Positions 19,405-64,000 of a stretch of DNA of 64,000 nucleotides are shown here, piece after piece (position 1 is the stretch's first letter; each line of letters opens with the position of its first letter). The stretch is from Niebla homalea. Lineage: Eukaryota > Ascomycota > Lecanoromycetes > Lecanorales > Ramalinaceae. The stretch is from NCBI GenBank assembly GCA_019925105.1, contig JAHGAU010000002.1, forward strand, positions 496,001-560,000. Reading direction: 5' to 3'. The notes under the pieces are model-generated. The model was not told the DNA's origin, did not search any database, and saw only the letters and a program-made list of their open reading frames with translations. A program made the position numbers and the translations under genes.

Positions 19405-21585
19405 TCACGTTGCAATCCCAGACTTCTCATCCCACACGCGCTGCCAGATGCGCTCGTCAGCTTCCAGAGGTCTGTTCCATGTCCCTAAGCGTAAGGGCTT
19501 CTGCGTTCCTGGTTCAGGGAGACACATCCATTGTCGGACAACCCCGGGAACCTCTTCTTTTAGATGGCTGACACAAATCAATGCTTGATGGCGTGATAGA
19601 CCGCTGATGGGCTGCTGATAGCTTCTGAGATGCTGTGGCGTCGGGAGTACAGCTCTTGCTTCTATATCGTACCGCCCCCCAATTCTGAACGATCGTTCCT
19701 CACCCCAGGTTAAGAACAACATACACTTATCTCGGACATAGTCATCCATGCCGCTGAAGGCTTCATCAAGAACCACAAGGTCTGACTTCTTGATGATAGC
19801 CCGCAGGAAGAGAGCGACTCGCTGTGCACAAAACGATGCTTCACCAAATCGAATATCATCAGCCCAGTCGGTGCTTCTAGGTAATGCTTCATCCATTATG
19901 TAATGAGAACGTCGTCTAACAGTCTGAGTGGTTGAGGGATCAAACACAGGGTTTAGCTCGGCCTCGAACCAGCGAAGGCACGCATCAACTGTGTCATCAA
20001 TCTCTGTCGTAAGATTTGGCGAGCCAAGGAAAGTATCGGCCCAAGCGTTTTCGAGTGTCTGGCGCAGCGAGAGATTTCTGGGAAAGAAAGCGTGTATTTC
20101 CGGTGATGACTGGCCTATTCTAGACTGGAGATCGAATACTGAAATCCCCGGTCGGCCAGGCTGAGGCAAACGTGAGCGGCCAAACACCTCGAGTGGCTGA
20201 GAATAGGACTGAGGGTGATCGGAACATATTAGAGATATCAGTGTAGTCTTGCCGGTACCATTGGAGCCAAAAACGCCCCAGCGTTCTCCCCTGAGAACAT
20301 TCCACCACAAACCTGGCGATAAGTATTTGTGTTTGCGGCTGGCGAGGGGAGACGCTTCTTGTTTCCAGTCTCCGAGAATTGTTTTTTCACCATACGCGAT
20401 TCGAACGCCTTTCATTTTCACAAGAGCTTCCGAGGATGTAACTTCCTTTTCCGGTGACTTGAAAGGACTTAAGGGGAGTCCATCACGACTTTTGGACTTG
20501 AATATTTTGCTTGTAGTAGCCCACACAGGGAGACCTCTTTGATTTGGGTAGCCTGGCTTGACAGCCTTTGGTCTGCCCTCGATGGGCTTGATTAAGTCAT
20601 TGGTCCCATGCATAGGATGAGCTTGTCTTTCGCCCTGCGATTCAACGTGTGAAGCGGAGGCAAGGCGTACAATATGAGTAATCCACTCTGGCAGGGGATC
20701 CTGAGGGCGCAATCCTAGCACTAGCCGGGGAGACCTCGCTTCTGAGATCCGAAATAGCAATGCTGACAGATGTGTGACAGTTGCTGGATCCAGACCCATG
20801 AACGGTTCATCTAAAAGCAGTACGAGGGGTTTTCCTAACAATGCTCGCGCGATCCGAGCCCTTCTAGTCTGACCATTACTTAGATTGCTCATTGGCATAG
20901 GTATTAAAGCTTTGAGATTGAGATCATCGATGACTTGGCCAAGGTTTTTGCTATCCACCTTTTTCTCGCTTTCCTGTTGGAAAGGATTGAGTTCCGTGTT
21001 GCCTTCGAGGAAATCTAGCAGCGAAAAGTCTGTCTCTTCTCTTCTGCTCTCATAACGCGCACTCATGTAAGCTCCTCGTGTACCCAATCTCCCAACACCG
21101 CCTTTCTCCACATCAAAGCCAACATATTGAACTGCGCGTGCTGGGCTCTGGTAGCGCTGCTCCAGCCCATCCAAAGAGAGAAATGGATACGAGCGAGCGG
21201 TCGGCGGAATGCAAATGTGCTTTCCTTGTAATACGTCAAAGAACCAAGTCTTTCCCGCATTGGATGGAGCTATGACGGCCCAGTGCTGTGGTGGATCAGA
21301 GATGGAGGGTAGCTGAAATCTCAAGTTGGGAAATATGGGCGAATTGCCAGAGTCCACATTTTCCGACGCTGAAGGATACCGCCTGTAAAATGTAGCATCT
21401 TCGATCTTGATAATGGGTGCTTCGTGCTTCGTGGTGCCGAAGGACCGAATATTGAAGCCATGGAGAGCACGGCGTTGCAGGAGCCCTCCGCGCATTACCA
21501 GCCGAACCCTCGAACAATTTGTTCCTTCAAGATGCAAAAAAGCACGCGGCGGCTGTGTTTCCGCACATATTGTGGCACCAGTCAC
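19405..21585 (-). CDS. Two-cassette soluble ABC ATPase (yeast YDR061W-like)
   Basis: A single 726-codon frame with two nucleotide-binding domains and no transmembrane domain. NBD1: Walker A APSNAGKTW (106-114), signature LSNGQTRRARIARAL (about 235-249), Walker B VLLLDEPFMGLD (255-266). NBD2: Walker A GSNGTGKTT (440-448), a degenerate signature region (FGEASFCAQRVAL, about 580), Walker B LVVLDEAFSGMD (603-614). The order and the lack of membrane spans match the ModF-like fungal family represented by yeast YDR061W. The N-terminus contains an Arg-rich segment after an internal Met at residue 31 (MRGGLLQRRALHGFNIRSFG) that would suit a mitochondrial presequence; the real start may be there. Substrate unknown. 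No intron is needed. Confidence 0.9.
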   Translation of the reverse strand: MTGATICAETQPPRAFLHLEGTNCSRVRLVMRGGLLQRRALHGFNIRSFGTTKHEAPIIKIEDATFYRRYPSASENVDSGNSPIFPNLRFQLPSISDPPQHWAVIAPSNAGKTWFFDVLQGKHICIPPTARSYPFLSLDGLEQRYQSPARAVQYVGFDVEKGGVGRLGTRGAYMSARYESRREETDFSLLDFLEGNTELNPFQQESEKKVDSKNLGQVIDDLNLKALIPMPMSNLSNGQTRRARIARALLGKPLVLLLDEPFMGLDPATVTHLSALLFRISEARSPRLVLGLRPQDPLPEWITHIVRLASASHVESQGERQAHPMHGTNDLIKPIEGRPKAVKPGYPNQRGLPVWATTSKIFKSKSRDGLPLSPFKSPEKEVTSSEALVKMKGVRIAYGEKTILGDWKQEASPLASRKHKYLSPGLWWNVLRGERWGVFGSNGTGKTTLISLICSDHPQSYSQPLEVFGRSRLPQPGRPGISVFDLQSRIGQSSPEIHAFFPRNLSLRQTLENAWADTFLGSPNLTTEIDDTVDACLRWFEAELNPVFDPSTTQTVRRRSHYIMDEALPRSTDWADDIRFGEASFCAQRVALFLRAIIKKSDLVVLDEAFSGMDDYVRDKCMLFLTWGEERSFRIGGRYDIEARAVLPTPQHLRSYQQPISGLSRHQALICVSHLKEEVPGVVRQWMCLPEPGTQKPLRLGTWNRPLEADERIWQRVWDEKSGIAT

Positions 21586-21854
21586 CAGTGGTTGCCGCAG
21601 AGGATACTGCGGCTTTACGAAATATCTCCGAAGATGCGAGGCTGGTGAGGCTTCCCTCGAGATCAGCTGCCCCCCTCAATGCAGTATTTAGATGATAAAG
21701 TGACAAGTTGCAAGCTTGGGAGGCTATTTAGATGAAATATGGCCTGCGGCGAATACATATCAGCTTTAAGACGGGGAAGATACAACAAAGAAAGGCTACA
21801 AATGTGTGATATCTCGAACCTTTTAAGGCACTAAAGATCACCAAATGACCATAC

Positions 21855-23324: not shown

Positions 23325-23679
23325 AGCATTTTTGGTCTTCTTCTGCTGGTGATTTACACCATGAAGTATGAAGGCCGATCCTACGGTACCACTTGAGTGT
23401 ACAGATTACAGAGCGGCAGGATCGGGGTTTATAGTACTAGGACTCCTAAGATCTAAGAATGTTCATTGCTTTATCGTTGTGGGGTGGGGTGTCCAATACA
23501 TAGTATTTTGAAGGCATTGCTCTTCATCGTGCGCGGTACATCTTCGGCTTTTTTTTTTGTGGATATCTTGGCATTCGAGAAATTTCCTCGCAAGCTTGCA
23601 TCTTTCACCCGCGATCAAACCACCAGTCATCCATTACAGCTCTAGATCCTTTCCGAACTTCCCAACCCCCAAATCCAAG
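23325..23679. other. Upstream region of HSP10
   Basis: About 350 bp between the tRNA and HSP10. It contains a T10 run near 23550 and presumably the HSP10 promoter. No heat-shock element could be assigned with confidence. Confidence 0.3.
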
Positions 23680-24193
23680 ATGGTAAGAAGAAAGTCCCTG
23701 CGGTTGAACGGACACAACCCCCCCGGACTCATGCTTTACAGACTACCTCCCTCAAATCCATAAGATCTCTAGCGCCTCTCCTCGACCGCATCCTCGTGCA
23801 GCGCGTCAAGGCCGAATCCAAGACTGCTTCCGGCATCTTCCTGCCAGAGAGCTCCGTGAAGGAGCTGAATGAGGCCAACGTGCTCGCCGTGGGCCCGGGT
23901 GCTGTGGACAAGGAGGGCAAGAGAATCCCGATGAGCGTGGGTGTGGGCGACAAGGTCCTGATACCGCAGGTATGATTGAGAGATGTGAGGAAGTTGAAAG
24001 CGGGGAAGGAAGCTGATCCAAATATCTTACAGTATGGAGGCAGTCCATTGAAGGTCGGCGAGGAGGAGTATTCGCTGTTCCGGGACCATGAGTACGTTCA
24101 TCTTCTGATCTCCCCCCGTGCTTTGCCCAGGGGATCTTAAGCCAGATGCTGATTCTTCTCTCTCTCAGGCTGCTTGCGAAGATCAATGAATGA
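23680..24193 (+). CDS. HSP10: Mitochondrial chaperonin HSP10 (GroES family)
   Basis: Model: join(23680..23682, 23742..23969, 24033..24091, 24169..24193), 104 aa, the standard length. It is the co-chaperonin cap of HSP60 in the mitochondrial matrix. The core LAPLLDRILVQRVKAESKT, SGIFLPESS (mobile loop), VLAVGPGAVDKEG and the final KVLIPQYGG and EEEYSLFRDHELLAKINE follow the family closely. The first exon consists only of the ATG codon followed by GTAAGA; splicing joins it to ACT-ACC-TCC (MTTSLKSIRSL). All junctions keep phase. The N-terminus has the basic, uncleaved character usual for Hsp10. Confidence 0.95.
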
Positions 24194-24496
24194 AGAATGG
24201 GCTGGATAGGATGCCTCATGTACCTTATACAATTCGACTACTAAAGCGGTGGAGTTGTCCTGTACCTGCATATTGGGGAGCTTTGCATTTACAATTCTGC
24301 CTTGTCACATAATCCAATCAATCTCCTCTCTCTACTCAGAAACCGTGACGATGATTGGACGAAGTGTCTGATTTGAATAATGATATGTGAACTCGCTAAA
24401 CAAAGACCAACTCAATGCATCTCTCACAATCCCATCCCCACTTGTTGGACGCATTCAACGCGCGACTGAACACATATCACTCTCTCTTTCCCCCCC
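24194..24496. other. Short convergent intergenic region
   Basis: About 300 bp between the 3' ends of HSP10 and the SNARE gene. No further gene is seen. Confidence 0.35.
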
Positions 24497-25369
24497 TTAC
24501 TTCGACGATCCAACGCATTTTGACCAGCCTGTGTCCTTTCATCAGCATATCCCGTGCTTGAGCAATCATGAGAAAGAACCCCAACTCACCAGGCAACCCG
24601 CATCCGAAGCCGACAAACAGATAGATCAAGAACACCACCACCACCGCCAAGAGCACCATCAATTTCACATTCTTCCACCACATCCGCCTCTTCAACCCCC
24701 GACTCCGCACCCGGAAATCGTGCGCCCCGACCCCCAACCGATCCGTCTTGTCCACCAGCAGATCGATCCGCTCCCCCCTCTCCAGCACCCTCTCGATGTT
24801 CTCCGTCATGATCCCCCTCACGTTGTCGATCTCCTGCTGCGTGTTCGTGATCGCGTCGTGCTTGCCCCCCTCCGTGGTCCCATACCCCACCATCAGTTTC
24901 TTGAGCGAGCCGTTGAAATCGGCGGCGCCGTAGGCGGGCATGGATGAGAAATCCGTGGATTCGGGGTGGTGGCGCGAGAGGAATTGTTTCTTGATCTCGA
25001 CGAGGTAGCCGAAGGGGATGCGGCGGCCAAAGCTGCTGGAGGCGATGACGAGGAAGGTGAGACCGCCGGCGGAGGAGGAATGGGGAGGGTATTCCGAGGG
25101 GGCATCGGCGATGTAGTGGATGAAGTTTTGGTTGTGGGTGTAGGTGAGTTTTTGCGGCGAGGAGTGGTTGATTTTGGGGAGGATGAGGGAGGCGAGGGAG
25201 GAGGTCTGGGAGGATGCTGAAGCGGTGTGTTCACTGAGGATGGTGGTATGGTAGGCTATGCAGGAGCTGTTGAGGATGACTGTTCAGTATATTTTTCGTA
25301 CTACTGGGGCCAAGGGATGCTATCATCGACGTACTAGAGGAGAGGAGTAGCACTGGAGGAGGAAGCCAT
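24497..25369 (-). CDS. NYV1: Vacuolar R-SNARE of the Nyv1/VAMP7 type
   Basis: Model: complement join(24497..24528, 24590..25266, 25335..25369), 247 aa. It has an N-terminal longin domain (LLYSCIAYHTTILSEHT to FGYLVEIKKQFL), an R-SNARE motif (EIDNVRGIMTENIERVLERG, then ERIDLLVDKTDRL, with the zero-layer Arg in ERVLERGE), and a C-terminal anchor (VKLMVLLAVVVVFLIYLFVG). The last 32-nt exon supplies GWSKCVGSSK after GCGLPG; without it the reading frame would run into non-homologous sequence. Splices keep phase. The family acts in homotypic vacuole fusion and late endosomal traffic. The SNARE layers are intact. Confidence 0.92.
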
Positions 25370-25742: not shown

Positions 25743-28700
25743 CTAGAAAACTTCCTCAATATACCTCTCGTTCATGATATGCTCCAAGTCTACGCCAAGG
25801 ATTCTCCCAATGACTACCTTGATCGACTTTGCTGCTTCACTGTTGGCGCAAACGAATATAGAGGCCCCCCCCTTGACTTTCGTCTCAATGTGACTGGCAA
25901 CATAACCTTGCTGAAGCTTATCTTGGATGCGATGCTTCTTCTCATTGCTTTGCACTATTTCCAGCATGTCAATCATATCGAAAGATCTAGCTTCGCTCAA
26001 GGTGGTTTCCGTTAATGGGACATCTGAAGGGTGCAGCCCAAGAAAGATGGAAAATTGCCTAGCGACTGGCTCTTTTTGGTCCTCGATCCGGCTCGACTCA
26101 AGAGTGTCAAAGATGCGAGACTCCAGTAAACAGCGTACAGGGCCGAATCCGGCACCTGTTGCCACAATGATCCAAGAATGTAGACGGCGCTGGCGCATTG
26201 TCGGTCCTGCGAGTGAATCTACGATGCGATATTTCATTGCAGTAGCCTCCCTGAGAAAAACGTCACTCAACCTGCCACTTGATAGCTTCTTGATCATGAT
26301 CACGATGCGATTCGTATTGGCGTCGATTTTGTCCCCCACAACTCTATGCTGGTATTGGTGTGAAGAGGCAATCGAGTACGTCCGAGTATGCAAAAGAGGT
26401 ATGTCCATAAGTAACTTTACAATCTGTTCTTCTGAATAGCAAAGACCAGAAAGTAGTCTCATTTTGTCGAGTAGTTCAAGCGTATCGAAAGCACTCATGT
26501 GGGTCAACATATCGATTGCAAATTTGGATGACGCTTCCCCATGTGTGGCCAGAAGCCAGTCCAATTGGCTGAACGGCAATTCCAGATCAACGAAGTCAGT
26601 GAGAAATTGCTTGTATGTGGGCATTAGGCTAGCGGAAAGCTCGATTCTGGCTTTCTCGTCCTTGCCAATCAATCGAAGCATCCGATTGACCTTTCGTTCG
26701 GAATTCGAAGGAAGTATTTGAACGCAGGCCATATCATCGTGATGGAAGATGTCGACATCCATATAGGCATATATTGATCTTGATGGCGCATCTATTGCTT
26801 CGTTCAGTACAACGGCACCCGGCTTAAAGAGGCCCAACTTTGTTGCATGGTCTGAGAAAAGCATATGACTCTTCCCAAATGTGTGTAGATCGTTTTGAAG
26901 TCCATCCATACCACAAATCAACGAGGTAATCTTAAGCTCGACGCTTGACACACTTGATATCGCTGCCACCAAAGCATTCCACCAGTCATTCAGGGCGTTA
27001 AAAGGAATGCTTTGTGTTGCTATGTCTCCTGAGAAGTAATTACCGAGAATAGAAATGCAGCCAAGTTCCTCCAATTTCCTCTGCACTTTGGAAGCAGCCC
27101 CATTGTACGTGCCCGAGTATCGAGTGTCTCCATTGCCGAAAATGGCGAATTGTGTTCCTTTCATCTCAGGGAGCAGCGGTAATTGGAGGACATCTTGTCC
27201 ATTTTCTGGCACTGTTCCTTTCCCCGTCGAACTTATGATGATAAGAATGATTTTGTTGCGGGTCATGTCGGAAGCTCCGAGTTGATTCAATGCTTTGATG
27301 GAGCCATCAAAGGTCAGAGCCAGAAGTGATGGAGTGCTCACAAATTGGTCAATCTGCCTGGACAGTCTTTTTGCCAGCTTTTCGGCCGTCGTACCCGCGC
27401 TGCAGAAGTAGATCCTGATGACTTTCGAATCTTGGAATACCATAGGTCGCCCACCCAACTTTAGAGGGTTAGCGGCTGGAAATGGGGCTCTCAACCTTGC
27501 CTCTTTGAGCTTGACAACGTTAGAAATAACAGCCTTCTCAGGCATGTCATGATGCGTCTGGCCAACGATGAATGCTTTGCTACACTTTTCTCTTCGCCAG
27601 ACCTTGATCGGATCTTGAACGTGCCGAGCAATCATCGGTCTTGGTTGATAATTGGGAGCACCCCCGCGGTGCCATACTGGGAGGATTGATCCTTGAGGAA
27701 GGGCTATCCAAAAAGGATCTGCGGGCAAGCGATAGCCATTCTTCTTTCGAAAATTGTCATCAAATTTGCACCACTGCTTGGATGCGGACAGTGAATCAAG
27801 CATAATGATACTAGCCTGCCGATATGACCATTGTACCGCAAAGTTCAACTCAGTCTGCGCTTGAGACTATATTGCATCGTCCTGTTAGCTCGTGATGTAA
27901 CTAAGATCGATTTGGAAGACTGACCAAGATGGCAAATTGCTCATATTCTTCCAGCTCCTCGAATGAGCAATGATCTGTTGTAGTTCGTTTCTTTGCTAGC
28001 TGCAAAGCTTCCGCAACTTTTGGCAGTTCATTGTATCGAAAGACGTCCGCAAGGTTACGTACTCCAATCTCTGCATCCACGAACCTAGCTCAAAATCATA
28101 AGCACAGGTCTTTGGAGAAACGTGTGGAGACCTACCATCCCATGAAAGGGGCTGCAGTGTATTGAACACCACCTATGTCAAAGCCGAGTCGTGTAAGGAT
28201 AGGCGCCACCTTCCACTTGAGATCCAGCCTTTGGAATGCTTCGAGATGATCGGGGTGACGAATAGGAACGTGACTGGAGAGGGGCGCGGGGATTGTCATC
28301 ATCGCGGGCTTGTCCCCCACAGCCATCGCAACAAGCGGAAGAAGGTCCCATCGACCTCTTTTGCTCGGTGGTATCCAGCCCATCTCTATCATGGCCTTGG
28401 TCAAGGCGACATTAGACGGGTCACCAAGAACGGATCCGTCCTTCATCTCATAGCCCGCATAGTCCAGCAATCTAAGTACAACGTGGAGTCAGCATTGCTC
28501 TATACGACTCGAAACTCTCGAAACGCGGATGAAAGTCGAGGAAACGCGTCAGGAGATTTCTTACTGATGATTCATAATCATGGGACCTCTGCTACCGGTA
28601 GTCCTGGGTGCAAATACAAATACGGTCGGCTTAATCCTGCCGTCATTGAAAGCCAAGATTGAACTAGCGATCAACTTCTGCGCCATCGCCTCACTCGAGG

Positions 28701-29172
28701 TGACATGTCGAAGATCGCAAAGCTCCAGCTCTTGGTAATGATTGCGGCCAATACACTTCCGGGCGTTCCTCCATGCTCGCTTAACACCAAATTCGAGTTC
28801 ACCTGTTGTCTGGTACCAAGTACCTCCAAGGCGGCCTTCAGTATTTTGATCCCAGAGAACGCCTTCAGCACTGTCCGATATTTCGGAACGAACAGTCTGC
28901 AGCCTCGCATTGTAAGTTTCTTCATCTTTGAAGAACCCGTCCTCGTATAGATCTTGCAAGAAGTCGATGGCTTCCTTCTGTACACGATCCAGAGTCCGAT
29001 TCACTCCCACGCGAGGCTCGTCGGTATGCACGGCTCTCCCTGCTTGGCAGAAGTCTTTAGTGCAGCCAGTTGACGCGAGGTTGCGATGTTTTCGTCGTAT
29101 GAGTTCGAGCTCAGCCTTGCCGGCAGGACATACTGCAAGATTATCAGGAGCAGTGCTTGCATTGTGATGCAT
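25743..29172 (-). CDS. Nitric oxide synthase (full-length fungal NOS: oxygenase plus reductase)
   Basis: Model: complement join(25743..27866, 27925..28084, 28136..28471, 28565..29172), 1075 aa. Oxygenase domain: a Zn-type C-x4-C (Cys37/Cys42), heme-ligand motif AWRNARKCIGR (Cys140), VFVFAPRTTGSRGPMIMNHQ, LLDYAGYEMKDGSVLGDP, GWIPPSKRGRWDLLPL, and FMGWFVDAEIGVR with the substrate-binding Glu at about 320, then ELNFAVQWSYRQASIIMLD. Reductase: flavodoxin-like FMN site YFCSAGTTAEKLAKRL (about 521), ISSTGKGTVPENG and FAIFGNGDTRYSG; FAD motif RTYSIASS (about 863); NADPH motif VATGAGFGPVR (about 936) and FVCANSEAAKSIKVVI; C-terminal aromatic end ERYIEEVF. Expected product is NO plus citrulline from arginine, using NADPH. 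There is no long autoinhibitory insert in the FMN domain and no clear calmodulin helix, so Ca2+ independence is inferred. All junctions keep phase and no frame lesion is seen. NOS is patchy in fungi. Confidence 0.93.
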
Positions 29173-32034
29173 TTTAGACAGCCAGTTATATTAGGCCTCC
29201 GCTGAATGCATTAGATATGGGAACAGAGTTACAAGACCTTGCTTATGATCCGCCGGTTCCTATTGAATATGGACTTGGACGATCTTAAGAGGTGAATTGC
29301 TACCTCTCTGTATATTACCGCTGCCACGATCTTACTCAGGTGCGAGTCAAATGTTCGGCTCATACAGCAAACGCGCGAAAACTCCTCCTTGAAATGTTAG
29401 ATTCCGCTTGGTCTGCTAGAACGGAGTCATTGGACAAAAATTGTCAAAACCATATAGAGTACCGAAATACTCGGCCAGAGTCGCTGATACTTCTGAAGGA
29501 GCTTCGGGAAAGATCTGTGAGAGGCCCCTGACGGGCAGGCGTGCTCACATATCTTAATGATATCGCAACGAGAATATCAATCTAATCGAGCGCAATATCG
29601 CAACGCTTATATCTGATATACTCGATGCCGGATGCCGTCTGAACAATCTTTATCGATATGTGGAATCAGGTTGCAAGATGACTATTCAAGGGTACAATGC
29701 CCCAAATCGCTATGCTGCATTGTAGGAATAGTGGACAATGGGCTCTAGTGGCTGGTCCACGAAATGAGGAGAAGGAAGAGAGCACCTTTTACCATCCAAT
29801 GTGAAAAGGGGTGAACACCGGGCTCACCAAAAGGAGTGAAGCAGAGGCCATCCTTCATATCATATGATTGCGATGGTCGTCATTGCCAATGCCAAAAATC
29901 GGGGTCAAAACCGTAACTTGCCCCTGATGGCCCGTGATGTTTAACTAGCTTTGGTAAAGTCGAGACTAAATCACGGCGAATACGTAAAACATTTCCTCGC
30001 TCACGATCAAGCTGGGTCAAGCAAAGGATTGTACTCGTACAATGTCAACAACTGCGACAGGAAATGCGGAATATCACTCTACCCATTGAATCATTCACAC
30101 GTTCATAAGTAAAGGCGACCTGGTTGGATAATTCTCCGATGGTGGGGTCCGAGGGACTGATCTGGTCAAGGTTGAAGGTTGACTAAAGTTTTCGCACTAA
30201 CTTGTAAAGCAGCCGTCCTCGACAGAGGCAATTGGGAGAGAACCAAATGTCCATACAATACCTTTACGGCAGCATTGCCGGAGCCAGGTAGGAAGTTGTG
30301 GACCATACCTGGTCAAGAGCGTTTGATTGATGTCGACGCTTGTTTCGATCTCGATGTGTCTGGTGATTTGGGGAAGACGTATTGACGAGCTGTAGATAGC
30401 CTGACCATGGCATGGTGCAGGATTCAAATGTTAGATGCGGAATAGCACTGTGCTCCTCTTGCCTCCATTGTGCCGTGATCCATCTTTAGGTAATAATGTT
30501 TGCGAGGGCTCAGCAAGCAGCCAGACGCAACTCCCCAATGCTTGAGATCAAAATCGTCCTTTGGTCTGGGTAGCAAAAGGACAAAGCAGAAATCAGTGAT
30601 GAGCCGCGCGCGATGAGGCTCTCAAACAGGCATGAAACATCCTTGGCCGTCCACGGGGTCCAGCGGAAGATAGCTTATCTTTGCGGGTCCATCTTTGCGG
30701 GTCCACTGAAAGGCCAGGATCAGCGAACGCTAACGGGACAATAATAATTGCCCCACTCACTCCCCAATCCAATCAGGGGCAAGTTTTAGAGTAAGACAAC
30801 GATACCTATATAATGCTCGCCATCGGCTTGCGTCATCAAATAGCAAGATCCACAATTGGACCAAAGCAGCTGCTAACTGTGGTACAGCGGTAACTAGAGG
30901 CCATGTTGATGCTGCAATAGATTAGATCCGGTTGCGAACTTGCGATAGAAAGTGAAACGCAAAGCCTCCTCCTCCTTTCGCCTGCGGCAAGCGCCAAGGT
31001 CTAACAGACTCGTGAAACAGCGATCAAACTACTGACGCGTTCGACTCTTAGACTGCATCTGCATTGCATCATGCCCAAAGCTCCCACCAAATCCCGATTG
31101 CTCAAGAGCCAGTCGCGAATAGTAATTGAGGATACAGGCCTAGGGTCTGATAGACTGATATAGATCACCCTATGATAAGGTGCACCAAAGTCTGCATCCC
31201 TTTCCATCCCCGTCCATCCCCACCAGTGGAACGAATCCTTCAAACAGAGGGTTTGGCTCCCCAGCCAATCCCCTTCAGATCTTCAAAGCCCGAAGAGCGG
31301 TAGCCAATGCGGCTCTCCCCATTTATCGTACATAAAGTGTCTCAAGATAAGCCTCCAATTGTTTGCTAGAGAGGTTACGCACACGCTATCACTCCATACT
31401 TTTGTTGAAAGTGAATGAATGCCCACTCTTGCGCCAGCACTTCACTTCGTGCTCTCTTCGACATCTATAATTGGATACATCTTCCTTATTTTACCATTAC
31501 AGTCTACAACCCGTTAATATATTCAACCCACCAGCTCAAGATTAGCCCGCCCACCCATGAATCTCTTGGCGGCGCCGGAGCGGAACACAGAAGAATAAAG
31601 TCGTGAAAACTCCGTGACCAAGAGATGGCACCGCAACTCGCCAGCCTCCATATTCCCCAGATCAAGGTATCTGAGTTCGCCAACGACTGGGATCTGGACG
31701 TTGTGGGCAGGACCTTCAGCGATAAAGTCCCCGGTTACCGTTCGACAACTAGTGGGTTTCCCTATCACTTCCTTGATCGACAGCCTCTCCCGCAAAAGTC
31801 ATTACTCAAATCCCAATTCATCACTGACATTCTCCTTCTTCTTCTGCAGCATTCCTCACAACCCTCCGCTCAAACCTCCAACTCTCTGCTGCAGGTGGCA
31901 TTTCGCCATCACTTCCTCCCTCCGCGATATCCACACCCACAGCGTCCGCCTTCACATTCAACCACTCCAATCCTCCACTCCTCTCCATCAGCGCCTCGGG
32001 CATGCCCCTGCTTGCCGCATCCGCCGCAACAATG
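29173..32034. other. Gene-poor 2.9-kb stretch upstream of NOS
   Basis: No recognisable protein or RNA gene in nearly 3 kb. Short repeats occur: a GATATCGCAACG/AATATCGCAACG pair near 29560-29610, and a 15-bp direct duplication (ATCTTTGCGGGTCC) at about 30676-30705. An open frame begins at 31625 (MAPQLASLHIPQIKVSEF) upstream of the GNAT gene, but it has no recognised motif and is probably 5' UTR. The stretch could hold long regulatory sequence for NOS and the GNAT gene. Confidence 0.35.
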
Positions 32035-32739
32035 ACAACGACCGCCCCAGTGCCCCCACAAGACGACATCCCTGAACTCAGCTACAAAGTCGCACCCGCG
32101 GACCCCTCCGAAGACCGCATTGAAGCGCTAAAGCTAATCGCCGACTCCGTGGCTCAGCAGCGCCAGACCGCTTCCCGAGCCGTGATCCTGCACCCAGCCA
32201 CTCTCGCCATCACAGCCGTGGTCTTGGGCGTGATGTCGCAATTGCTGGAATTTTCCATGCTCATCACCAGCGCGGCGGGGGTGATCATGGCGGGGCTGTT
32301 GGCGGTGCGGATGTATACCGCCGGCTACATCGCGCTGGCCGAGAAGATCAATTTCAAGTGGTTGGAGGAGAAGAGTAATGGCAATGGAAGTCCCAATGGT
32401 AATCGGGATCCCATCGTTCTCGTTGCGAAGTGGGGCGATGAGGTTATTGGCGCGCTGGTCATGCGGGTGGTGAAGCGTGAGAGGCGCGGATATGTGAGGG
32501 CCTGGACGGTGAAGCTGAAGTATAGGAATAAGGGCATCGGGCGTGGCTTGTTGGAGGAGGCCGCGAAGGTGGTATGGGGGAGAGGGTCGAGGATGATGGA
32601 GTTTGAACATGATCATGCGAATGCGAATCGTGTGTTGCCGGACTTCTTCAACGGTGGATTTGACAAGAATGAGGCCAAGGGGCGCGCTATGTTGGTAGAG
32701 GTGGTGGCGGAGACGAAGAGGGAGAGGAGCAGTCGCTGA
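32035..32739 (+). CDS. Membrane-associated GNAT-fold acetyltransferase
   Basis: A 234-aa protein. It begins MTTTAPVPPQDDIPELSYKV, then RIEALKLIADSVAQQRQTAS. A hydrophobic hairpin follows (LAITAVVLGVMSQLLEFSML and ITSAAGVIMAGLLAVRM). The GNAT core is IVLVAKWGDEVIGALVMRVV, with motif A around VKLKYRNKGIGRGLLEEAAK (R/Q-x-x-G-x-G/A type, RNKGIG). The frame extends upstream to 32002 (MPLLAASAA), but the 32035 Met fits the fungal family better. Members with this hairpin plus GNAT arrangement are common in Pezizomycotina and uncharacterised. The substrate is unknown. No intron is required in the coding part. Confidence 0.8.
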   Translation, partial: TTTAPVPPQDDIPELSYKVAPADPSEDRIEALKLIADSVAQQRQTASRAVILHPATLAITAVVLGVMSQLLEFSMLITSAAGVIMAGLLAVRMYTAGYIALAEKINFKWLEEKSNGNGSPNGNRDPIVLVAKWGDEVIGALVMRVVKRERRGYVRAWTVKLKYRNKGIGRGLLEEAAKVVWGRGSRMMEFEHDHANANRVLPDFFNGGFDKNEAKGRAMLVEVVAETKRERSSR

Positions 32740-34801: not shown

Positions 34802-36429
34802 CTAGAAATACAGAGACCTCCTTCGCATGACATGACTATGCCTCCGAATGTGACGGTGACCACGCTTCCGCTTGGATGCAGCGCAAGTGCCGAATTGGGG
34901 CTGGCAGCCATTTCCGCAGTATTCATCTACTGTCCCGCAATATCTGGTACAATGTCAGCGATCGTCGACTCAGATGGCGTTTATTGGTAGAGACACACCC
35001 ATGAGACGAACAGCACATGCCCGCCTTACAAATCTGACCGCCATTACTACCACAAGTATCGATAGAATCAGTAGATGAATCGTTGGCCCCGGCAGTCACT
35101 GCACCGGACCCGGAAGGCACTGGTACCGCCAGCGTGGGCGCAGGCTCAAAATCTGACGGAGACGCTGAGACAGAGCCCGATTCAGACGCGGGGACAGGAC
35201 TTGCAGTAGGCACGGACCCTTCCATGGGTGCAGTCATAGCCACGACGCCGCCGGAGAGTGCAGGTAGTTGGGCGGGCATCTCATCATCTGCAGATGGCGG
35301 ACCGTTGTAATTACCAGCCGCGCATTGGCTCTGCAGTTGCTTGCAGTAGTTCTCCCAGTTGTGGCAGTTCTTGCCTCCGGTCGGGCCAGCCGATTTGTAG
35401 CAGGCTGTGTTTTGGGTCCAGCAATTCTTGGAGGACTGTGCAAGGTCAGTGTTCTTGGCTGTGATAGGCTTCTAAGGGGATATTTACATCCCAGCAACCG
35501 TTCTGGTCAGAGTAAGTAGGTGGCATGACGGCGCACCAGTTGCCATTCTCCATGACACAGTCCGAGGGCTTGAGGCCGATCGTTTGGGTCATGGCACGCT
35601 CTACAAGAGACCGCTTGGAGCTACTAGGATTGTAAAGAGGCGGTCCGAAATCCGGGAACGGCAGCTTGAGAGGAGTCGCATAGATGTTGTAGGTCATTGC
35701 TGGCGTCTGCATATTCACATATCCTGGAATCGAGACGTGATCTTTGGGGACTGCTGAGCCATCAGACGTCAAGAAGACCTGTGCACATCCCACATAGAAT
35801 TGCGGATCTGGAGGTGTTACTTGGGTAGCATGCAGCGCAAGTAATTCAGGACGCATCAGATAGTAGCCTGGTGCCAAATCCTTGGGGATAGTAGCCTGCA
35901 AGTGGCCACTGTTAGGGATCAATTTCTCAGTGCACCATTTTTCGGCGGTGCTATCGTAGCCATCCTCCATGATCTTGAACCAGCCATCTCCTGCAGCGTT
36001 GTTGCTGGCCGAGGAGTCGCCGACTTTCTTCATGTACACTGCACAGGGGCCCTTGTGGCTCGGGTCGATGGAGCCGGCTTTGGTGCCATCGGGCCAGTCT
36101 CGCCATTCGAATGTGATCTTGGAGTCTGCCTTGACTCCTGCAACGCGTGAGACCCCAGTCTCGCCGTTCACCCCTATCATGTTCATCAGCGAGATGGGGT
36201 CAAACCAAGAGTGGAAATTTGAGACTCAAGATCAAGACCTACCGCATGCCATGTCCTTGCTTGTGACACTCGAGATAGGGAAGGTGGCTTGCGCCATGTT
36301 GTTGCTCATGCGAACTGCGACGCCATCGCCTTGATCGACCCCATCAACAAAGAAATTCGTAAAGGCGGTATGAGCTTTGACGATCTGAGCAGTACCAGCT
36401 GCTGTGAGAGCGACCTGGAAGAAATGCAT
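34802..36429 (-). CDS. AA9 lytic polysaccharide monooxygenase with C-terminal CBM18-like module
   Basis: Model: complement join(34802..34943, 34999..35435, 35488..36173, 36243..36429), 483 aa, secreted. The signal peptide (residues 1-19, MHFFQVALTAAGTAQIVKA) ends directly before His20, which becomes the N-terminal copper-brace His. Other AA9 marks: DMACGVNGETGVSRVAGVKA, DPSHKGPCAVYMKKV (second copper His), GYYLMRPELLALH and QFYVGCAQVF (axial Tyr). A Cys-rich middle segment (KNCWTQNTACYKSAGPTGG, NCHNWENYCKQLQSQC) and a Ser/Pro/Glu linker lead to a chitin-binding type-1 (CBM18) pattern: CGSNGGQICKAGMCCSSHG, then YCGTVDEYCGNGCQ and FGTC. The last about 28 residues are Arg/Lys/His-rich. AA9 enzymes oxidatively cleave cellulose or hemicellulose; a CBM18 instead of the usual CBM1 suggests targeting to chitin-containing material. 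The ATG lies 10 bp after AGT-ATG context and splice phases agree. Confidence 0.92.
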
Positions 36430-57769: not shown

Positions 57770-60700
57770 ATGGAGGTAGCATCTCCTGGCCAAAGGGCAA
57801 ATGGGCACCCCCCACCAACATCCACCTCCACAATAGATCCAGACTTGGTCGTCCAGCACCTTGTTGATCTCCTCGAAATCACACTGGGCGCATCGAATGA
57901 GGATCTAGAGTGTGATGGGAGCCTACTGTCTCAAGCCAAAAGACAGGACACCCTCCAGCGATGTACAAGGTTTGCCTCTGAGTCGCAGGTCGCCTTGTAT
58001 GTTCAAAAAGACATTGTGAATATCGATGTGCCAAAAAGCTTGACGAACGGCAACGCTCAAAAAGGTGAGGGAATTCATGATGTCAATCTGTCCTCTATTA
58101 AAAGAAGAAAACAGACCCTTCGCCTCGCTGCACATACTCGCTTTCTACCGAAATCTCATTCTCCTCGAACACCATCTCTTCTGTCGCTCTCCTCAAACGT
58201 CCTCAGCCTATAAACCCACGAAGACCCCTTCCCACTCAGATACAAGTCATCAACCTTCCGGGTGCTGCTACGCTCAACGAGACCAATACAACAGAGGGCA
58301 GCCCAGGCTCTCCGTATGAGGTCCTTCACTCTATCATCCATCTTGCTCTTTCGCCATATTTCAATGCCTATGCTCAGGGTCAAAAGCAACTAGCGGGCGG
58401 TAGCAACAAGTCAGATCTCGACGCGAAGGCCGGAGTATCCGGAGCAAAAAAGAAATTGGCTGAACTGGAACTCAGCCTGCTCCATCTACAGCAGAATGTT
58501 GAGATACCAGATCTCGTACTTGCTTTCCCAGATGTTATCCAAGACGCCCTCGATTCTGCTGCGGTCGACCGGAGGAAACCTTCCCTTGATCTCATACCTG
58601 CGGAACTTTCTACTGACTCGAGATTCCTCAACGATTTACAAGGCGCGGTCAATGTTTGGATAAAGTCGATACAGGCAATAACGAAGATGTCGAGAGATCC
58701 TAACAGCGGAAGTGCCACCCAAGAAATCAAATTCTGGCTTTCATTAGAAGACAGACTTAAAGACATTGATGCTCAGACAAGGAATGATGGGGTCCAGCTA
58801 ACGCTAGACGTTTTACAACATGCCAAGAGATATCAGGTCAAGGTAAGCTTCTATGCGGACACAGGCCTGAAGGAAGCATTGGAGCTTGTCCAAAAACACA
58901 ATATCTTGATGGAAAAGTTTCCCATGGATGATCTTCTCTCTGCAACGACGTTGGAAAGGATTCAAGAAGCTCTTGACTCAATATTCGGCCATCTCAACAA
59001 GAAATTGCGCCTCACTCTCTACCCTATCAGTCGCGCATTACCTCTTGTCCACGCCATCTCTGGTGACTTAGACATTCAGCTTCATACTCTTCTACATGGC
59101 CGAACATTGATGCACCTCGACTTCCAGGAATTTCAAGCAGTGATGAACAGAGCTGAGATGATATGGCACGCGTGGGACGAACACGCCAAAGACTTCACCA
59201 ACGTTGCCCGTGAGCTAATGAGAAAACGAGCGGAGAAATTCATGCCCATCAAAGTGGTAGGCAGGCATACGAGCACACAGGATCGCATGAAATATATCAA
59301 GACTTTTCGTTTTAACCACGAGCAACTCCAGAAGACCATTGTCACTGTTCTCGGCAACAAAACAACGAATGAAACCGCTGCTGACGAAGGTGCTGAAGAT
59401 CAAGTTGTGCTGGTGGAGGAGATTGGAGATGTTGACGCTGTACAAGAAGTAGCTCAAGCTTATGCCGCCCTTAAAGACGTCAATGTGCTTGATGTCTCAC
59501 CAGAGGGCACGCAAATTTGGGCTCAAGCAGAGGCAACGTACAATGAGCGGACCTCTAGGGTAGAGAACTCCATCATTGCTCGCTTAAGAGATCGCTTGGC
59601 GGTTGCGAAAACGGCAAATGAGATGTTCCGTGTGTTTTCAAAATTCAATGCTCTCCTCGTACGGCCCAAGGTTCGAGGAGCCATAACTGAGTACCAAACG
59701 CAGCTCATTGATAATGTCAAACATGATATTACGGCCTTGCACGAACGCTTCAAAGAACAGTATGGAAACTCTGAAGCACATGTGATGGCGCAACTTCGTG
59801 ATCTACCGCCTATTGCAGGCGCCATTATCTGGGTCCGCCAAATTGAAAGGCAACTCGACGGCTACATGAAAAAGGTTGAGAGCGTTTTGGGGCAGGAATG
59901 GACCTTGCACTCAGAGGGGCAAAAGCTCGAGGCCGAAAGCACCTTATTTCGCAAGAAACTTGATACGAGACCCATTTTCGAATCGTGGCTGAAAGAAGTG
60001 CAACGGCGACGGATACAGATTGAAGGACGCCTGTTTGGCATCACCAAAAATCGGACGATGGGAAATACGTTAGAGCTAACCATCAATTTCGACCCACAGG
60101 TGATCGCTCTCTTCAAAGAAGTCAGGAATCTCCTCTGGCTCAACTACCAGATACCCCATGCCATCAGCAGCGTTTCGAAGGAGGCGCGGAGAGTGTATCC
60201 GTTCGCAGTCAGTTTGATGGAGAGTGTGAGATCACTCTCACAAACTGCGAGGGTCATTGATACCATGCCGAAGATGACCACGCTCCTTAGTGGACACCAG
60301 AAAGAATTGCATGATCTCATACTTACGGGAATAAAGTTGAAATGGGAGTCCTTCGTACACTCGTATGATCTTCATGTCAAACAAAACCCGGTCATTACTA
60401 CCCAAAATACACGAGCGTTACCTGCGGGTCGTGGAGAAAGTAAGCATGTCCAGTTCGTACGTGACTTCGCAGCTGCCGCATCAAACCTACAGAACAAGAC
60501 CTCAATTCTTCAAGTGGTCAACGAGACCTTGCAAAATACTCTAGGGGAGCTGCAATCATGTCACTACTCTTCACCAGCTCTTGCTTCTCGTCTAGAGATA
60601 TTGCAGACAGCTGTAGACCAATTGAATCTTGAGGGCTTTTCGAACCTCGGTATTTGGGTTTCCGAATTGAACAGGTCGATAGAAATCATCCTTCTGCAAC

Positions 60701-63700
60701 GCCTTCAAACAGCCATTACAAGTTGGTCGGAGGCATTCGTTGACTCACGGAACGATGAAGGATCCTCCCGGTGGACAGAAAAGACAATTCCCAAGGAGTC
60801 TGACGGCGACAAGCCCATGCTTGAACGCCTTGTTCTCGAAGTTATAATGCGCAATCAAGTCGTCTATCTGGACCCACCCATTGAACATGCTCGCTCTAGC
60901 TGGCTTATGCAGCTGCATGATTATCTGGGCGTCGCTTGCAACCTGCCCTTGATCAAATCCTCCAGATACGAATTGAGGATGGAGTCCAAATCTCTCTCCT
61001 CATATTCAACGTTTCAACACCTGCCAGAAAAATGCAATCTGGAGCTTTCAGCAGTCTATGAGAGGGTCGAAAGGAGGCTTGCTGAAATCGTGGCCTACGT
61101 TGACAAATGGTTTCAATTTCAGTCCTTGTGGGATCTTGAAGCCGACATGGTTTACAATGCCCTTGGGGAAGATTTGGGCCGGTGGCTGCAGCTTCTGCAA
61201 GAGATCAGGAAGACAAGAGAGACGTTTGACACCTCGGAATCAAGTCGAAGATTTGGAGCCCTGACAATAGACTATGAGCAGGTGCAGACAAAGGTCACTG
61301 CGCGATATGACCAGTGGCAGCATGAGGTACGACTAAAGTTTGCAGGGCGCCTTGGGGTCCGAATGCACGAGCTCCATGCCGAAATCGAAAAGGCTCGTCG
61401 GGATCTCGAAGGGCAATCTCTCGAAGCCTCGTCAACCGCTCAGGCAGTGTCTTTCATTACAGTTGTTCAGCAGTGCAAACGGCAGGTTGCGGTATGGGAA
61501 CCCGAAGTAGAAATCTTTCGCCAGGGTCAGACCCTGCTTACTCGGCAGCGATATCAATTCCCAGCTGAATGGCTATTCGTGGACCAAGTCGAACACGAGT
61601 GGACAGCGTTGAATGAGATACTGGAGCGCAAATTGAAAGTCATAAGCGATCAAACCGATGCGCTGCGAGCCAACATTGTTGCTGAAGACAGAGTCGTGAG
61701 TGGCAAAGTGGCAGAGGTCATTGCAGATTGGGAAGAGCAGAAACCAATTTCAGGAAACATACCACCATCAGAAGCAATCTCTGCCTTGACCCATTTCGAA
61801 GGTCGTTTGACACGCTTGAGAACAGAGTCCGAAATGGTCTCCAAGGCGAAAGAAGCTCTAGATCTTTCAAGTGGTGCCGCAAATGCCTTGGGTCCAATTC
61901 TCGAGGAGGTTCAAGACTTCTCGTCGGTGTGGGCGGCGCTTTCGACGATTTGGAAGAGTCTGGATGACTTGCGTGAGGCTTTGTGGTCAAGTGTGCAGCC
62001 ACGGAAGTTGCGACAGTCGATAGATGGCCTCATCACGATGACGAAGGAGATGCCCGCCCGAATGCGACAATATGCTGCGTTTGAGCATATCCAATCCGTG
62101 CTCAAGCAGTTACTGAAGGTCAATCCTCTCCTCTCCGACATGAAATCTGAAGCAGTCCGCGAACGACATTGGATCAAGATCTACAAAGCGCTCAAGCCCG
62201 GCAAGAGGTATTCTTCTGTGTCCATGAACCTTGGTGATGTCTGGGATCTTCAGCTTGCCTCAAGTGAGGCCACTATTCGGGACATTGTAGCCCAAGCTCA
62301 AGGCGAGATGGCCCTAGAAGAATTTTTGAAGCAAGTTCGTGACACCTGGCAGAACTACTCTCTCGACCTGGTGAATTATCAAAATAAGTGCCGTCTGATT
62401 AGAGGCTGGGATGACCTATTCGCTAAATGCAGTGAGAATCTGAACTCCTTACAAGCGATGAGGCACTCCCCGTACTACAAAGAGTTCGAGGAGGAGGCTT
62501 CCGCATGGGAGGACAAATTGAACCGTGTGCATGTCCTCTTCGATGTCTGGATAGACGTCCAAAGACAATGGGTCTACCTCGAAGGCGTCTTCACCGGCAA
62601 TGCTGACATCAAGCACCTGCTTCCTGTCGAGTCGTCCCGATTTCAAAACATCAATTCAGAGTTCTTCGCGGTACTGAGGAAGGTCCACAAGTCACCATTT
62701 GTACTAGATGTACTGAATATATCTGGTGTGCAAAAATCTTTGGAGCGCCTGGCTGAGCTGCTCAACAAGATCCAGAAAGCTTTGGGTGAATATCTAGAAA
62801 GGGAACGAATGTCCTTCCCAAGATTCTATTTTGTGGGAGACGAAGATCTGCTCGAAATCATTGGGAATAGCAACGACACCATGAGGATAGCAAAACACCT
62901 GAGAAAGATGTTTGCCGGCTTATCTGGCCTACAGATGGAAGAGGAAGCTACCATCACCGGTTTCGGGTCCAAAGAGGGCGAGCAAGTTTCACTCCGAAAA
63001 CCTATCAGTCTTGTCAGGACACCCAAGATCAACGATTGGCTTGCATTGTTGGAAAGCAACATGAAAGCCACGCTTGCTGAATTGCTTAGTGAGGCAGAGC
63101 AATCATTTGAGAAATTGGCTCAAGCGGAGAACCTTGATGTGCCAGCCTTCTCTAATTTTATCGACTCGTTTCCTGCCCAGATAGTCGTGCTTGCAACGCA
63201 GGTCGTCTGGACTAGTCGAGTGGAAGGTGCCCTGAGCTCAGGAGGAGATGGTTTACACACGCTCTTCGAGACGTCAGTTGGCTTTCTTGAGCTTCTAGCC
63301 AGCATAGTTCTTGGAGAACTTGATGCAATAAAAAGAAAGAAATGTGAGCATCTCATCACCGAATTTGTACATCAGCGGGATGTTATCAGCAATTTATTGA
63401 AGGCCAATGCTCGGAGTACAACGTACTACCTGTGGCTATTACAAATGCGGTACGTCTATGATCGTGACGGAGAGGCAGTTGATCGTCTTCGAATCAGAAT
63501 GGCAAATGCAGACCTTGCCTATGGCTTCGAGTATCTTGGGGTTCCTGAGAGACTTGTTCGAACTCCACTTACGGATCGATGCTTCCTGACTTGCACTCAG
63601 GCAATGGCTCAGCGCCTTGGAGGGTCACCATACGGTCCTGCAGGGACAGGTAAAACAGAGTCTGTCAAAGCTCTAGGGGTACAATTAGGCAGATTTACCT

Positions 63701-64000
63701 TGGTCTTCAATTGTGATGATACCTTTGATTTCCAAGCCATGGGACGTATCTTCCTAGGCATATGTCAAGTCGGAGCATGGGGCTGCTTTGATGAATTCAA
63801 TCGGTTAGAGGAGCGTATTCTATCGGCGGTCTCTCAGCAAATACAAAATATCCAGCTGGGTCTGAAGAAAGGCTCAGAGACTGGCGACTCTCAAATAGAT
63901 CTGGCCGGCCGTCAGTTCTCTGTCAGTGCCAACACTGGAATATTCATCACTATGAATCCGGGATATGCTGGACGATCGAATCTGCCCGACAATCTCAAAA
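57770..64000 (+). CDS. DYN1: Cytoplasmic dynein 1 heavy chain, 5' part (truncated by window edge)
   Basis: Model: join(57770..58064, 58115..>64000), about 2060 residues of a family of about 4300. It is the force-producing subunit of the minus-end-directed microtubule motor (nudA/ro-1 in filamentous fungi), needed for nuclear migration and vesicle transport. The N-terminal tail region contains [20 protein letters not shown] and QVINLPG after a 50-bp intron that joins NAQK to DPSPRC. The DHC_N1 tail follows ([37 protein letters not shown]) and the linker region ([40 protein letters not shown]). The window ends inside AAA1: [20 protein letters not shown], Walker [10 protein letters not shown], Walker B-type GCFDEFNRL and [20 protein letters not shown]. 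No further intron is needed up to the edge. Confidence 0.95.

Follow-up and report, generated by a model that had tools for sequence, protein, structure and literature searches.

The NOS gene and its neighborhood

The window, a stretch of 64,000 nucleotides from the genome of Niebla homalea, contains a nitric oxide synthase (NOS) gene on the minus strand between positions 29172 and 25743, which comprises four exons and encodes 1075 amino acids plus a stop codon. The gene and the open frames flanking it are arranged as follows:

19405..21675, minus strand: ABC ATPase open frame
24477..25283, minus strand: open frame for a longin/synaptobrevin (VAMP7-type) SNARE, which also adjoins the NOS gene of Ramalina farinacea
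25743..27866, minus strand: NOS exon 4 including the stop codon; end of the oxygenase with the pterin-side residues W421, W433 and H434, linker, FMN module, FAD/NADPH module and the C-terminus ERYIEEVF
27867..27924, minus strand: NOS intron 3, 58 nt, GTCAGT...ATATAG, phase 0
27925..28084, minus strand: NOS exon 3; the catalytic glutamate E320 within DAEIGVRN, and a SFEELEEYE stretch, which is absent from nNOS
28085..28135, minus strand: NOS intron 2, 51 nt, GTAGGT...AGCTAG, phase 2
28136..28471, minus strand: NOS exon 2; haem-pocket residues L295 (nNOS Val567 site) and R297 (Asn569 site)
28472..28564, minus strand: NOS intron 1, 93 nt, GTAAGA...ACTTAG, phase 2
28565..29172, minus strand: NOS exon 1 with the start codon (29172), the Cys pair C37/C42 of the Zn type, the haem residue C140 within RAWRNARKCIGR and the beginning of the substrate pocket (P189)
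31828..32739, plus strand: GNAT acetyltransferase open frame on the other flank of the NOS gene

The original prediction had described a complete four-exon NOS gene with oxygenase, FMN, FAD and NADPH parts in this order, consistently spliced and without a lesion. The splice model together with the domain, profile and fold matches given below bears out the first part of this description, and the second is confirmed by the GT...AG borders of all three introns and by a coding sequence of 3228 nt, which is in frame and free of stops and frameshifts. The motifs quoted at that time are all present in the translation. Exon 4 forms a single stop-free frame of 707 amino acids; when the same stretch was resampled 200 times with a first-order Markov model, the longest run without a stop averaged 144 and reached at most 273 amino acids. 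The acceptor of intron 3 is indirectly supported by the frames of two metagenomic relatives, which start with MQSQAQTELNF. A PF02898 search of the whole genome (50.6 Mb, 52 contigs), in which the best candidates were scored, revealed a single NOS locus consisting of the exons of this gene and no second copy.

The SNARE frame has its upstream edge 460 bases away from the NOS stop codon. In R. farinacea the NOS (OHK93_005728) and a synaptobrevin (OHK93_005729) carry consecutive tags and are both located on a contig of 1,794,806, and in two metagenomic relatives the NOS exon and the ABC ATPase are on equal-sized contigs (1,822,727 and 28,227); shared contigs in the relatives were deduced from equal lengths and tags. 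In Candelina mexicana the tags of the ABC and SNARE proteins are consecutive and their contigs equal in size, with the NOS on a different contig, and in Candelaria and Pyrenodesmia separate contigs carry ABC and NOS. Judged from these positions, the NOS gene seems to have taken up its present locus in the Ramalina lineage, since it lies elsewhere in Candelina, Candelaria and Pyrenodesmia.

Within the segment 19405-25283 the ABC ATPase and the VAMP7-type SNARE occur together with a Cpn10-like open frame (23646-23975, recognized by eye). Databases hold fused models of such neighbors, one of SNARE and ABC (P0239) and one of SNARE and Cpn10 (P0265), so the order ABC/Cpn10/SNARE looks old in lichen fungi and the NOS gene like a later arrival. 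Elsewhere in the window we observed an open frame for an AA9 lytic polysaccharide monooxygenase (35446-36225, minus strand; 2.3e-45), after which comes a frame rich in Ser and Pro that contains Cys (34923-35471), and the beginning of a gene for a dynein heavy chain (58102-63999, plus strand), whose 1966-aa frame runs past the window end. The nine window frames that were scanned contain ABC ATPase, SNARE, GNAT, AA9, PP-loop, DUF3337, WD40, kinase and dynein domains, and no biosynthetic gene cluster around NOS was seen among them.

Domains, predicted reductase fold and regulatory elements

Two of the four Pfam domains named in the original prediction were recovered. NO_synthase (PF02898) covers residues 62-438 with an E-value of 4.4e-90 (302.7 bits, cut-off 22.7), so that the oxygenase is certain and a match to P450 reductase without NO_synthase did not arise, and Flavodoxin_1 was detected at 3.7e-11 (43.8 bits, cut-off 25). 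In contrast, FAD_binding_1 remained below its cut-off of 32.3 (16.4 bits, E 0.007), and NAD_binding_1 was not listed for the 1075-aa protein. In the PDB the oxygenase halves of nNOS scored best (8.4e-63), closely followed by bacterial NOS, and overall values range from about 1e-59 to 1e-63. A profile built from 24 family members matches the cyanobacterial NOS (SyNOS, PDB 9q05) at positions 96-436 and 510-1064, the latter match spanning the FMN, FAD and NADPH modules.

The structure predicted for exon 4 has a mean pLDDT of 80.3 and a pTM of 0.70. Confidence is mostly high for the FMN and FAD/NADPH blocks and low for the linker and the oxygenase tail, with pLDDT values below 50 at exon residues 48-82, 102-144 and 309-329. 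Using this model as query, Foldseek yielded 295 matches at E <=0.001, with P450-BM3, CYPOR and syNOS as top PDB entries (about 640 columns, best E 3.6e-27). The whole-query TM-scores of about 0.4 and the rmsd values of mostly 12-28 would be expected for domains set at a different angle, and the comparison thus supports the folds and not the domain arrangement. The predicted structure and the family profile show that the protein carries a complete diflavin reductase despite the weak Pfam scores. These scores hint at a degenerate FAD/NADPH half, a reading that we rejected in view of the profile and fold matches and of the unchanged family-conserved columns outside the oxygenase.

The NADPH site, in which the Tyr of animal enzymes has a role, reads SN..K.R (N1009, R1014) compared with SR..K.Y in animals. 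The position equivalent to Arg597 (CYPOR numbering) is Asn, and the Tyr two residues past the Lys is Arg, both in 109 of 109 matches listed; the Ser is kept in 107 and the Lys in 90 of these. Binding of NADPH is reported to start with Arg597 and Lys602 (PMC12472590). A charge shifted by a few residues would presumably preserve it. The FMN loop begins with C in 112, S in 7 and G in 1 of the 120 homologues listed. The loop is therefore atypical, as had been noticed, but it represents the norm of the fungal family and is not an oddity peculiar to N. homalea. The family-wide FMN loop says nothing special about this gene. The suggested difference in electron donor coupling is plausible on a ground not named in the original prediction, the swap at the NADPH site.

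The absence of the FMN autoinhibitory insert, also claimed before, is supported by an alignment of an Aspergillus relative with nNOS, in which residues 826-870 of the human enzyme have no counterpart; in the N. homalea protein just 20 residues lie between PENG and FAIFG. The protein terminates with F1075, which we take to be the equivalent of nNOS Phe1395, the FAD-shielding aromatic, and has no C-terminal regulatory tail. Among 80 full-length homologues, 52 end at the same column and the remainder are 2-11 residues longer. Since both insert and tail are missing, self-inhibition would be expected to be weaker than in nNOS and eNOS, and control would be exerted mainly via expression and via substrate or pterin supply. 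A scan of the linker revealed one basic 1-8-14 pattern, a weak motif, which lies where the first FMN strand borders. The pattern occurs in 11 of the 80 full-length homologues as well, and independence of calmodulin was dropped as a firm claim.

Relatives and NO-related genes

The protein search gave 221 matches at E <=0.001 among 7985 scored candidates, of which 120 were listed. The named genera in this list include Ramalina, Cladonia, Lecanora, Candelaria, Teloschistaceae and others, which we take to be lichen-forming, the further ascomycetes Aspergillus, Colletotrichum, Cercospora, Ophiocordyceps and Apiospora, and the basidiomycete Collybia. Many of the listed homologues already bear the name nitric oxide synthase in the database, so the fungal NOS family is not new. 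The closest named relative among the matches listed is R. farinacea OHK93_005728 with an aligned identity of 71%; the other 22 homologues that were aligned reach 36-50%.

A quick tree was built from the N. homalea protein, 49 of the 120 homologues listed and two oxygenases as outgroup. In this tree the protein groups with Ramalina and two metagenomic rows with a support of 100, and this clade is placed beside the Cladonia group. A tree of 28 homologues agrees. The stem of the N. homalea/Ramalina clade is long (0.69 and 0.85 changes per column in the two trees), and the relatives within the clade likewise retain long open frames. In the database model of R. farinacea OHK93_005728 (P0001), about 85 residues are missing around the junction of exons 3 and 4. 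This gap is probably a fault of the gene model, a mispredicted intron, because the metagenomic relatives, like N. homalea, possess these residues.

Three Collybia proteins (P0028, P0036 and P0051) are located among lichen-fungus sequences in the quick tree, as are the two of them included in the 28-homologue tree. This placement suggests transfer between phyla or contamination. Horizontal transfer into Collybia was not retained as a firm claim, as an AU test does not reject a Lecanoromycetes clade without Collybia (p 0.186; p 0.384 with Thelocarpon added).

For cofactor and other NO-related genes the genome was searched in six frames without splicing, with prokaryotic genomes as controls, and zeros from this search are therefore weak. 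GTP cyclohydrolase I is present. Under these conditions no PTPS domain of pterin synthesis, no aromatic amino-acid hydroxylase, no globin domain of the NO dioxygenase type and no HNOB NO sensor were detected. If the absence of the globin is real, removal of NO needs some other route, and in the case of a true absence of PTPS a folate may serve as the pterin. The oxygenase domain in the SyNOS paper is reported to bind BH4 or THF (PMC6104048); the reported occurrence of tetrahydrobiopterin in some ascomycetes (PMC4778047) speaks against the folate idea. Nitrate reductase is represented in the genome by a frame of 773 aa in which Mo-co, cyt b5, FAD and NAD domains were recognized, and a second Mo-co dimer match lies elsewhere.

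Catalytic residues, probable function and known systems

Residue counts refer to the 120 listed homologues in one MAFFT alignment, with gap rows excluded and with exon-4-only rows misplaced near their start. The haem Cys C140 (W...CxGR motif), which aligns with the Cys of nNOS and SyNOS, is kept in 90 of 90 matches listed, and the Zn-type Cys pair in 86/87 and 87/87. Glu is found at E320, the guanidinium residue (nNOS Glu592), in 115 of 116 listed matches, with one Lys. On the pterin side, where Trp678 and Arg596 have their roles in nNOS, W421 is Trp in 115/115 and R324 is Arg in 116/116, and the FNR Cys is kept in 109/109.

The pocket around the substrate differs from that of nNOS by changes that, like those in the NADPH site, were not named in the original prediction. 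In the matches listed, the Val567 site is always Leu (116/116; L295 here) and the Thr591 site always Ala (116/116; A319 here). The Asn569 site is Arg in 109 and Gln in 7 of 116 (R297 here), and the Gly590 site Asp in 114 and Glu in 2 of 116 (D318 here). Gln478, which holds the alpha-carboxylate of the substrate in nNOS, is replaced by Pro in 87 of 97 listed matches, by Ala in 7 and by Arg in 3 (P189 here), and at the Tyr588 site Phe predominates (106 of 116 listed; Tyr 8, Leu 1, Trp 1; F316 here), the eight Tyr rows being those of Aspergillus. The nNOS-type carboxylate holders Tyr588 and Gln478 are thus not kept. As SyNOS also lacks the Gln, they are a trait of animal NOS and not a general requirement of the family. 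Val567 is reported to be conserved in mammalian and eukaryotic NOS and to be Ile in most bacterial NOS, and NO is reported to dissociate much more slowly with Ile (PMC6120233); Leu in the fungal proteins would be a third state.

The gene is a real member of the NOS family, and taken together the data argue that it probably encodes a functional full-length NOS of the fungal family in a lichen-type ascomycete of the Ramalina lineage. In such an enzyme two chains would pair via their oxygenase halves, and electrons would pass from NADPH over FAD and FMN to the Cys140-ligated haem, which with O2 and reduced pterin would convert L-arginine to NO and citrulline. The neighborhood was counted in favor of a working NOS, as the position beside the SNARE is kept in R. 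farinacea and NOS and ABC are on equal-sized contigs in two relatives. Counted against it were the sub-cut-off FAD_binding_1 and unlisted NAD_binding_1, the changed pocket residues (Tyr588, Gln478, Val567 and Asn569 sites), the failure to find PTPS and globin in a search that reads introns poorly, the long stem branch, and the published inhibitor (PMC6681199) and deletion (PMC4929157) results described below.

The altered alpha-carboxylate holders throughout the fungal family raise the alternative, which we consider unlikely, that the protein is a guanidine oxygenase with NOS fold whose true substrate is not free L-arginine but, for example, agmatine, arginine amide or another guanidine. The prevalence of Phe, Pro, Arg and Asp at the Tyr588, Gln478, Asn569 and Gly590 sites of the listed matches would fit such a substrate, all the more as the hydroxyl group of Tyr588 is reported to bind the substrate carboxylate and mutations of this residue to alter binding and oxidation strongly (PMC6120233). 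However, SyNOS, which has Pro at the Gln478 site too, is described as an active arginine-oxidizing NOS (PMC6104048), the Aspergillus proteins in the list retain the Tyr, and Arg at the Asn569 site could itself bind the carboxylate. In addition, 116 of 116 listed matches have Asp or Asn at the Asp597 site, the situation reported for nNOS and eNOS (PMC10343299).

Even less probable is a decaying or non-functional gene that is intact in appearance. The N. homalea protein differs from the other members at 7 of 162 conserved columns (identical in at least 95% of the other rows), namely R131K, P188A, F207Y, M317V, Y420F, P424L and K444R, which are all located in the oxygenase and none of which is catalytic. 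Family-unusual residues such as P188A, M317V and P424L would fit decay, as would the long stem and a locus that differs from that of NOS in Candelina, Candelaria and Pyrenodesmia, but none of the 34 conserved columns outside the oxygenase is changed, 3228 coding bases contain neither stop nor frameshift, and relatives of the same clade have kept long frames as well. Ranking 77th of 81 full-length rows, which show 0-13 such deviations, the protein is among the more diverged members by this alignment, yet inside the family range. Highly improbable is a NOS whose role would be nitration or some other oxidation in secondary metabolism, like that of bacterial TxtD, and not signaling. Bacterial NOS reportedly can take such a role (Kers et al. 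2004), but the nine scanned window frames show no biosynthetic cluster.

The reading as a functional NOS has to be compared with published work on fungal and lichen NO. NOS-like sequences were reported from Aspergillus and Glomerella, and from Macrophomina with motifs in separate frames (PMC4778047). NOS genes are described as rare in fungi, with structure and substrate specificity that may differ (PMC10889981). According to one review, fungal genomes are without NOS orthologues, and deletion of NOS-like genes in M. oryzae and (unpublished) A. nidulans left NO synthesis unaffected (PMC4929157), although these genes are not necessarily members of the present family. For thalli of R. farinacea it was reported that tungstate suppressed NO and the NOS inhibitor L-NAME did not, and that NADPH-diaphorase staining occurs in hyphae and algae. 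The authors considered nitrate reductase to be involved and NOS-like activity possible; they called NO a keystone of lichen stress tolerance, whose synthesis mechanism was without data and needed genetic studies (PMC6681199). The conclusion on R. farinacea is repeated in PMC8073698. These inhibitor data favor nitrate reductase as the main source of NO and argue against a NOS that is sensitive to L-NAME and of major importance, but are compatible with an L-NAME-insensitive one. Among the papers listed by searches for lichen or fungal NOS genes, no title or beginning of an abstract reported a NOS gene in a lichen fungus.

We tentatively put forward, as a possibility that we ourselves rather doubt, that fungal NOS constitutes a third enzymatic branch. 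It would have its own Leu gate at the haem pocket (Val in animals, Ile in most bacteria), an Arg replacing the Tyr/Gln carboxylate contacts, a relocated Arg for the NADPH 2'-phosphate, a folate-type pterin and poor inhibition by L-NAME, and it would be an unrecognized source of thallus NO in the Ramalina lineage. If true, this would account for the finding that NO in R. farinacea did not decrease under an inhibitor of the arginine-analogue type. The fungal family was known already; what the N. homalea gene adds is a concrete candidate for one NO source of lichens, probably functional and in a group of organisms in which its presence matters. As a complete gene at a locus shared with R. farinacea, it makes the question of the lichen NO source testable, and with nitrate reductase in the same genome a single organism allows a comparison of the two proposed sources. 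Specific predictions for substrate, inhibitor and cofactor preference follow from the family-wide changes in pocket and NADPH site.

Among known systems, Bacillus subtilis NOS (PDB 2an2) shares the oxygenase domain (E 8e-61), but with 360 aa consists of oxygenase only. SyNOS, like the N. homalea protein, combines oxygenase and reductase in one chain and shares Pro at the Gln478 site and Trp at the Phe691 site; it differs by Ile at the Val567 site, a canonical SR plus Tyr in the NADPH site and an additional N-terminal globin domain (PMC6104048). Animal nNOS, iNOS and eNOS have in common with it the Zn-type CxxxxC, the haem Cys, the substrate Glu, the pterin-side Trp and the C-terminal diflavin reductase. 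In contrast to these enzymes the N. homalea protein lacks both the FMN insert and the C-terminal tail, carries Leu/Phe/Arg/Asp in the pocket for Val/Tyr/Asn/Gly and SN..K.R for SR..K.Y in the NADPH site, and contains a short insertion ahead of the ELNFAV helix. The fungal NOS of R. farinacea, Cladonia borealis, Lecanora, Teloschistaceae, Aspergillus and Colletotrichum show the same domain order and the signature residues L295, D318/A319, N1009 and R1014. Within this family N. homalea and Ramalina are set apart by CIGR, where 77 of 90 listed homologues have CIMR, and by FAPR in place of FPPR.
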